NCBI GenBank assembly: GCA_030697825.1
Contig: JAUYOW010000049.1
Span: forward strand, 76,221 to 108,801
DNA from: Gemmatimonadales bacterium
GTDB lineage: Bacteria > Gemmatimonadota > Gemmatimonadetes > Gemmatimonadales > JACORV01
Direction of reading: 5' to 3'
DNA length: 32,581 nucleotides
Both the position numbers and the translations under genes were made by a program. How positions within the stretch are numbered: position 1 is the first letter of the stretch; the number at the start of each line of letters is the position of its first letter. The notes beneath the pieces were generated by a model. The model ran no database searches, was not told the DNA's origin, and was given only the letters and a program-made list of their open reading frames with translations. Of the stretch, positions 31,894-32,581 are shown piece after piece.

Positions 31894-31965
31894 CGGGGGC
31901 ACGGAGGCACGGGGGCACGGGAAACGCCTATTGCGTGCCTCTGTGCCTCCGTGCCTCTGTGCCCC
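31894..31965. repeat. Head-to-head arrays of the GGCACGG-type 8-bp repeat
   Basis: Plus-strand units GGCACGGA/GGCACGGG (31894-31920) face their inverted form, units like GTGCCTCT and GTGCCTCC (31935-31965), across a 14-nt loop. In plus-strand RNA the arms pair with G-U wobbles and are followed by TTTTT (31966-31970), which resembles an intrinsic terminator. In minus-strand RNA the same positions are A-C mismatches. Confidence 0.85.
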
Positions 31966-31973
31966 TTTTTCGT

Positions 31974-32330
31974 CTACAACTTTCGCACTCTCCGTTGAAG
32001 CCCAAACGTCATTCTGCTGGCACGCTGCCGAAGCGCATTCAGAGCTTCTGCTTGCTCGGCATTCAGATAGCCGAGATCCCCGGCGATGGCGAGGAGCGTG
32101 TCAACCTCGGCCAAGGAGCCGAGCGCGATGCTCAGGGCGTGGGCCAGCTCGCGTCGACCGTATCGGGCGTAACCCTCTGCGATATTCGCGGCACTCGATA
32201 CTGCGGCCCGTCGGAGCTGAGAGGTCAGTCCGAAACGCTCGTCCGAAGGAAAGTGTTGGGTTGCGCGATAAACCTCGCGCGTCAGTTCGCGACACTGCTG
32301 CCATGCCAGGAGCTTCCGGTGCTGGTCCAT
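31974..32330 (-). CDS. S23-family four-helix-bundle protein (23S rRNA intervening-sequence protein)
   Basis: The 118-residue protein matches the family TIGR02436/S23: KLLAWQQCRELTREVYRATQ, FGLTSQLRRAAVSSAANIAE and the following GYARYGRRELAHALSIALGS, then AEVDTLLAIAGDLGYLNAEQ. Family members form four-helix bundles and are often encoded in intervening sequences in 23S rRNA genes (for example in Leptospira and Coxiella), or alone in genomes. They resemble the Avd protein of diversity-generating retroelements. The function of S23 proteins is not known. The ATG at 32330 gives the standard N-terminus. The gene is flanked on both sides by tandem repeats and lies directly next to a 23S rRNA fragment in the same orientation. 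Confidence 0.94.
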   Translation of the reverse strand: MDQHRKLLAWQQCRELTREVYRATQHFPSDERFGLTSQLRRAAVSSAANIAEGYARYGRRELAHALSIALGSLAEVDTLLAIAGDLGYLNAEQAEALNALRQRASRMTFGLQRRVRKL

Positions 32331-32384
32331 GCGCCCAATGTGCTGCTTCCGGTGTGCTGCAGGTAACCCGTTTCAACGCACATT

Positions 32385-32440
32385 GTGCCCTTTCTGTGCC
32401 CCGTGCCTCCGTGCCCCCCGTGCCTCCGTGCCCCCGTGCC
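32385..32440. repeat. Second array of the 8-bp GTGCC/GGCAC repeat, at the 23S boundary
   Basis: About six units of GTGCCTCC or GTGCCCCC type (plus strand) run up to the base where 23S rRNA homology begins. Part of the array (32409-32436) is the inverted partner of 31894-31920. The unit GGCACGG also resembles the rRNA bases expected next in the intact 23S hairpin. Confidence 0.85.
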
Positions 32441-32581
32441 CCACTGGCGTGACAGCCGGTACACGAGCGGTCGGTCCGACCCGGTCCTCTCGTACTAAGG
32501 TCGGCGCCCCTCAATGCTCCTACGCCCACGACGGATACAGACCGAACTGTCTCACGACGTTCTGAACCCAGCTCATGTACC
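32441..32581 (-). rRNA. 23S ribosomal RNA, internal fragment (3' end missing, 5' part outside the window)
   Basis: The minus strand contains highly conserved domain VI sequence: ATGAGCTGGGTTCAGAACGT, then CGTGAGACAGTTCGGTC, and the sarcin-ricin loop AGTACGAGAGGACC. Homology runs to GTCACGCCAGTGG, about E. coli position 2709, and then stops at the GGCACGG repeat. The next bases of a normal gene (the rest of the helix 97 hairpin and GGTAGCTA) and the last ~195 nt are not found in the following 560 nt or elsewhere in the window. The fragment is certain; whether the gene is really broken is not. Confidence 0.95.

Follow-up and report, generated by a model that had tools for sequence, protein, structure and literature searches.

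Intervening sequences (IVSs) of 23S rRNA are removed by RNase III and are commonly found in helices 9, 25 and 45 (PMC4990558). Two proposals for their nature are on record: that they are remnants of transposition, or that they are mobile elements whose open reading frame (ORF) serves mobility (PMC4990558). S23 has been described in this rRNA setting (PMC4990558), and the rRNA intervening sequence is the context in which open papers place the S23 or "four helix bundle" proteins, which occur widely and whose function is not known. Arrays of heptads have been described as intergenic repeats in Xanthomonas and Nostoc, and many of those in Xanthomonas form inverted pairs (PMC4692102). The term S23 is absent from that paper.

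I propose that the locus considered here is one copy of a general, small, mobile, IVS-like cassette, consisting of an S23 gene within inverted arms, and that the piece of 23S rRNA beside it is incidental. The probability of this reading I would put at about 0.62.

The locus lies at one end of the stretch of DNA that was analysed (the window), 32,581 nucleotides of a Gemmatimonadales genome of 3.37 Mb in 333 contigs (G000:C49:76221-108801). Window position 32581 is the end of the contig (C49:108801). Read on the minus strand and starting at the contig end, the order is 23S sequence, arm A1, a spacer of about 65 nt, S23, array A2, arm A3 and era:

32441..32581, minus strand: probable displaced copy of 23S rRNA, 141 nt of about 155 (E. 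coli about 2569-2710; whole copy about 2555-2710)
32396..32442, minus strand: upstream arm A1, an 8-bp G-rich tandem array (GGCACGGA/GGCACGGG), from repeat comparison and RNA folding
32331..32395, minus strand: spacer, from arm A1 to the S23 start codon
31974..32330, minus strand: gene for S23, the 23S rRNA-intervening-sequence protein (PF05635, TIGR02436), 118 aa, a predicted four-helix bundle
31935..31967, minus strand: array A2, in the same sense as A1, making a short ORF-less hairpin with A3
31889..31921, minus strand: downstream arm A3, the inverted copy of A1
31001..31873, minus strand: era, intact, downstream of the cassette

For the displaced copy, E. coli 23S positions are counted from the sarcin-ricin loop.

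Much of this architecture had been anticipated. The original prediction called for an S23-family gene, a GC-rich 8-bp array between it and the 23S sequence, and beyond it an inverted copy of the array and then era. All are there. The protein scores 113.6 bits against PF05635, where the cut-off is 33.8; the array occupies 32396-32442; and A1 aligns with inverted A3 with a score of 55, while the maximum reached by 2000 shuffles is 26. When the RNA of the locus is folded, A1 and A3 make the stem and the S23 ORF lies in its loop. The prediction that S23 lies in a long, IVS-like terminal stem holds as well, and such a stem proves typical of the S23 family, as judged by the surveys described below. 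The era coding sequence holds a tandem array of its own, four in-frame copies of GGCGGGAC (window 31470-31502).

One check proposed with the prediction was to look in the same genome for other copies of S23 with its repeats. The genome contains three more S23 genes, and all four of its S23 genes (4/4) lie inside inverted arrays, but the repeat unit is different at each locus, those of the other three being of the GAGTTGCAG, GGGGAGCG and GGGGAGAAA type. A genome-wide family of 8-mer repeats can be rejected: outside the locus the pattern finds no more matches than does a reversed-pattern control.

Across the order, the family is present in 33 of 41 genomes, with up to 12 S23 paralogues per genome, at different sites. 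Of 94 PF05635 loci extracted, 92 were usable, and at 77 of these the upstream arm matches the inverted downstream arm above 99% of arm draws from different genomes. Shifted windows within the same loci pass in only 6 of 346 cases. The collection was also scanned with an eight-protein S23 alignment, giving 83 loci from Cyanobacteria, Planctomycetota, Acidobacteriota, Alphaproteobacteria, CPR and more. Here 70 loci (70/83) rise above the 99% level of shifted controls. When the comparison is made with arms from other loci, 29 of the 83 pass at 99% and 65 of the 83 at 95%, but this null is harsher, because G-rich heptads resemble each other. Pooling both sets, which span many phyla, matched arms are found at 142 of 175 S23 loci (the remaining 33 have no clear arms), compared with 7 of 138 neighbouring ORFs. 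The arms are 16-188 nt long, and their commonest tandem period is 7. LSU rRNA was found at none of the 40 cross-phylum loci checked for it, so the notion that S23 loci usually sit inside rRNA is rejected. The best reading is that the cassettes are mobile and IVS-like, and that they reside mainly outside rRNA.

Then there is the 23S sequence beside the window copy. Its homology ends at E. coli position ~2710, in helix 97, only a few bases from the array, and the original prediction placed the S23 element right where a 23S gene breaks off, perhaps carrying or replacing an rRNA end. The rest of the assembly tells a different story. The last 141 nt of contig C49 have an exact match at one end of contig C50, whose other end repeats the first 127 nt of that stretch. 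From the former, C50 goes on to a normal 3' end of 23S (315.9 bits), and a 5S gene comes next. At the latter, a truncated copy of era, 76% identical to the intact gene over 250 nt, leads into TCGCCGGTTAAAGT plus the 127 nt, which make up the first 141 nt of a 155-nt repeat. The same TCGCCGGTTAAAGT context is present in the 23S of a relative, G004, and the joint between the truncated era copy and the 23S piece has 6 bp of microhomology, TCGCCG. The 155-nt sequence (E. coli ~2555-2710) is found, then, in two places, one in the functional gene, the second flanked by truncated era and the S23 cassette. Two paths lead in and two lead out, which means that the window ends in a repeat node, not at a proven end of the functional gene. 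The 141-nt overlaps of the contigs would fit de Bruijn assembly with k = 141, and the sole path that yields an intact 23S gene would pass from the 23S body through the repeat to C50, and through the repeat again to C49.

The neighbourhood itself is old. Among 18 relatives, 12 have the 3' end of 23S just upstream of era and one more has at least a 5S there, and so rRNA-to-era synteny is ancestral. A TPR gene is upstream of era in G005, matching the order on C50 after the 5S. On the simplest reading, the 23S piece would be a displaced copy of about 155 nt, joined on its far side to truncated era, some 7 kb downstream of the rRNA operon. Since era directly follows 23S-5S in most relatives, the region between the rRNA 3' end and era looks like a duplication scar that has the S23 cassette within it, and the 23S sequence adjoining the cassette is best explained as incidental. 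On C50 (locus L032), some 7 kb beyond the 23S-5S end, lie two degenerate era 5' fragments, one matching over 107 nt at 96%, the other over 250 nt at 76%. Between the 5S and the intact era there are also genes of HEPN/MNT-type and PIN-type toxin-antitoxin systems, together with a BTAD gene and an extra gene for a nucleotidyltransferase.

Might the functional 23S gene truly be broken at helix 97, its 3' end replaced by the S23 element? The closeness of the end of 23S homology to the array speaks for this, as does the ancestral 23S-to-era order. It is ruled out, or at best extremely improbable, by the intact 23S 3' end and 5S on C50, linked via the same repeat, and by the second entrance to that repeat, from the truncated era copy. 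With it goes the claim that the element carries or replaces an rRNA end. It is a little less far-fetched, but still quite improbable, that unrelated pieces were joined at the 23S sequence by an artefact of assembly or binning. The genome is, after all, a MAG in 333 contigs, and the 23S part is exactly the 141-nt contig overlap. Yet the part comprising S23, its arms and era is independent of that overlap, the same architecture recurs at the three other S23 loci of the bin, and the era fragments on C50 share 96% and 76% identity with the intact gene.

The original prediction also suggested an element that relocates. The rRNA junction gives this idea no support, but empty sites in other organisms do. 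In plasmid C of Trichormus variabilis, S23 and both arms are flanked by direct repeats of TAAT. Plasmids of Nostoc linckia and Fremyella, about 98% identical in the flanks, have a single TAAT and no arms at the empty site (the clean comparison is that of L275/L288 with L280/L289). What was gained at this Nostocales plasmid site is about 430 bp, consisting of the arms plus S23, its sole gene. Arms and gene were gained as one unit, in relatives of the window cassette and not in the window copy itself. That the arms were a pre-existing target hairpin is rejected, there being no arms at the one clean empty site.

Other pairs of filled and empty sites, with flanks about 85-97% identical, are found in Calothrix and Tolypothrix, in Nostoc C052 and C057, in Nostoc edaphicum and Calothrix NIES-4105, and in Picosynechococcus PCC 7003 and 7002. 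Nostoc C052 and ATCC 53789 have reciprocal insertions in the same operon (flanks again about 85-97%). A clean direct repeat is seen at one site only; several others have small deletions or replacements. The sites are gene borders in operons: nuoC/nuoD, the subunits of RNR, cas6/cas4 and cas10/cmr3. There is also loss. G003, at one Gemmatimonadota site (site D), still has the arms, with 24 nt left over from the S23 ORF, and is rejected as an empty site for that reason. At another, the window genome lost, or never had, the whole cassette. S23 is inherited vertically at many sites, so movement is not frequent.

Some individual sites deserve mention in their own right. An ORF-less element is inserted inside an S23 gene on plasmid pNPM1 of Nostoc N6 (L292:1235-1415), and its heptad arms are the same as those of Nostoc S23 cassettes. 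Related copies occur in 43 plasmid records, and in the copies read the arms look alike. Two genomes share an intergenic gap occupied by S23 cassettes that point in opposite directions (L270, G006:C238; L271, G005:C45), either from independent insertions or from a flip between the inverted arms. In Anabaena sp. 90 the cas6-cas4 gap holds S23 and a long GGTGACA/GGGAACA array, while in Dolichospermum UHCC 0315A (L279), 99% identical, it holds a different hairpin element (GTAGGTTGGGTTGACGC...).

How do arms behave when the cassette stays put? Comparison at the same site rests on groups C, E, F and G and on subsets of A, B and I; in group A (ychF) and group H, same-site monophyly is not clean, ungrouped paralogues falling inside. 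At shared sites whose S23 genes form exclusive clades (groups C, E and F, and G007/G037 of A), arms within a genome match each other with scores of 32-71. Between genomes, the scores at those sites are mostly at the level of chance, 17-25, with G024/G016 at 33-40. Closer pairs still share arms: those of group G, G005/G006, and G008/G024 of group I. Where the two arms mismatch, sense-RNA G-U pairs are not favoured (173 vs 163), and compensatory arm pairing at the RNA level, for which an excess of sense G-U-compatible mismatches was sought, is rejected. Nor is adenine mutagenesis of the kind seen in diversity-generating retroelements (DGRs) evident in the mismatch spectrum. Because the mismatches lack sense G-U bias, matching is probably kept at the DNA level, and foldback copying or conversion is more likely to be responsible than selection for RNA pairing.

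The S23 protein is under purifying selection, judging by dN/dS of about 0.1-0.2 (from pairs with measurable dS). In an alignment of 54 sequences, the window S23 and 53 from other phyla, 15 columns are invariant, including Q38, R41, S45, N49, E52 and E75. The structure model (pLDDT 97.3) matches 2GSC with a TM of 0.95, and also BT_0352, and Foldseek matches it with Avd of DGRs (4DWL and 8UB7) at a TM of about 0.8. The NCBIfam model for Avd gives the window S23 23.7 bits, below its cut-off of 80. PADLOC, which looks for anti-phage defence, has no match for S23.

The model, then, is as follows. A cassette is an S23 (PF05635) gene between inverted arms, mostly composed of 7-8 bp tandem repeats. 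In the transcript, the two arms pair into a long stem that has the ORF looped out at its end, as folding shows for the window locus, and RNase III might cut the stem, by analogy with 23S intervening sequences. Such cutting would let the cassette be tolerated at low cost in operons and occasionally in rRNA. The arms change fast yet stay matched, more likely by foldback copying or conversion of DNA than by RNA pairing, and the Avd-like S23 protein may perhaps bind the nucleic acid of the cassette during movement or arm copying. A bolder version, offered tentatively and at less than even odds, is that S23 marks a widespread class of mobile hairpin cassettes whose inverted short-repeat arms are built or rewritten by the cassette itself, in DNA and site by site, with the S23 protein participating, and that the classical S23 IVSs of rRNA are only a minority of that class.

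It may be instead that an unrelated transposase moves the cassette in trans, as with MITEs, and that S23 is a passenger. An insert of about 430 bp encoding S23 alone would suit such a scheme, as would the ORF-less elements with the same heptad arms on Nostocales plasmids. I consider it somewhat unlikely, since the arms vary between loci, unlike the fixed ends that transposases recognise, and S23 is tied to such arms across many phyla. Decidedly less likely is that the arms are a resident hairpin, regulatory or for processing, round a stable host gene, matched by RNA-level selection and part of a unit that does not move. Inheritance at the same site across genera and purifying selection on S23 argue in its favour. 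It is hard to square with empty sites that lack arms, with as many as 12 paralogues at different sites in one genome, and with arm mismatches free of wobble bias. The mobile, IVS-like cassette remains the preferred reading.

If most S23 genes are mobile cassettes in locus-specific inverted arrays, there is a direct handle on the role of the protein, on the origin of IVSs and on the rise of matched short-repeat arrays. In open-access papers, nothing was found that describes inverted arrays specific to each locus around S23 genes, and their novelty is provisional. The window cassette resembles the S23-encoding 23S IVSs of Coxiella and Leptospira (PMC4990558) in having a protein of the same family and an ORF within terminal inverted repeats, and the Coxiella IVS, at 428-444 nt (PMC4990558), is similar in size. 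In contrast to these, it does not lie between rRNA halves: era, not rRNA, follows. The 23S homology beside it ends in helix 97, not in helix 9, 25 or 45, and cassette arms are short-period tandem arrays, different at every locus and sited at gene borders. A defining trait of a 23S IVS is rRNA on both sides. Because rRNA is absent on one side of the window cassette, it is not an IVS by class and does not belong among them, although by analogy it plausibly works like one.

The heptad repeats of Xanthomonas and Nostoc (PMC4692102) are like the arms of the cassettes, 7-bp G-rich arrays with some in inverted pairs. MITEs, too, are short, have inverted ends, lack a transposase and are gained at gene borders, but cassettes carry a conserved gene under selection, and their ends are no fixed family sequence, differing even within one genome. 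An autonomous insertion sequence is different again, for the insert of some 430 bp has no transposase gene. Finally, Avd of diversity-generating retroelements has the same fold as S23, although the window S23 falls below the curated Avd cut-off, and the cassette view provides a link between S23 proteins and Avd, whose fold they share.
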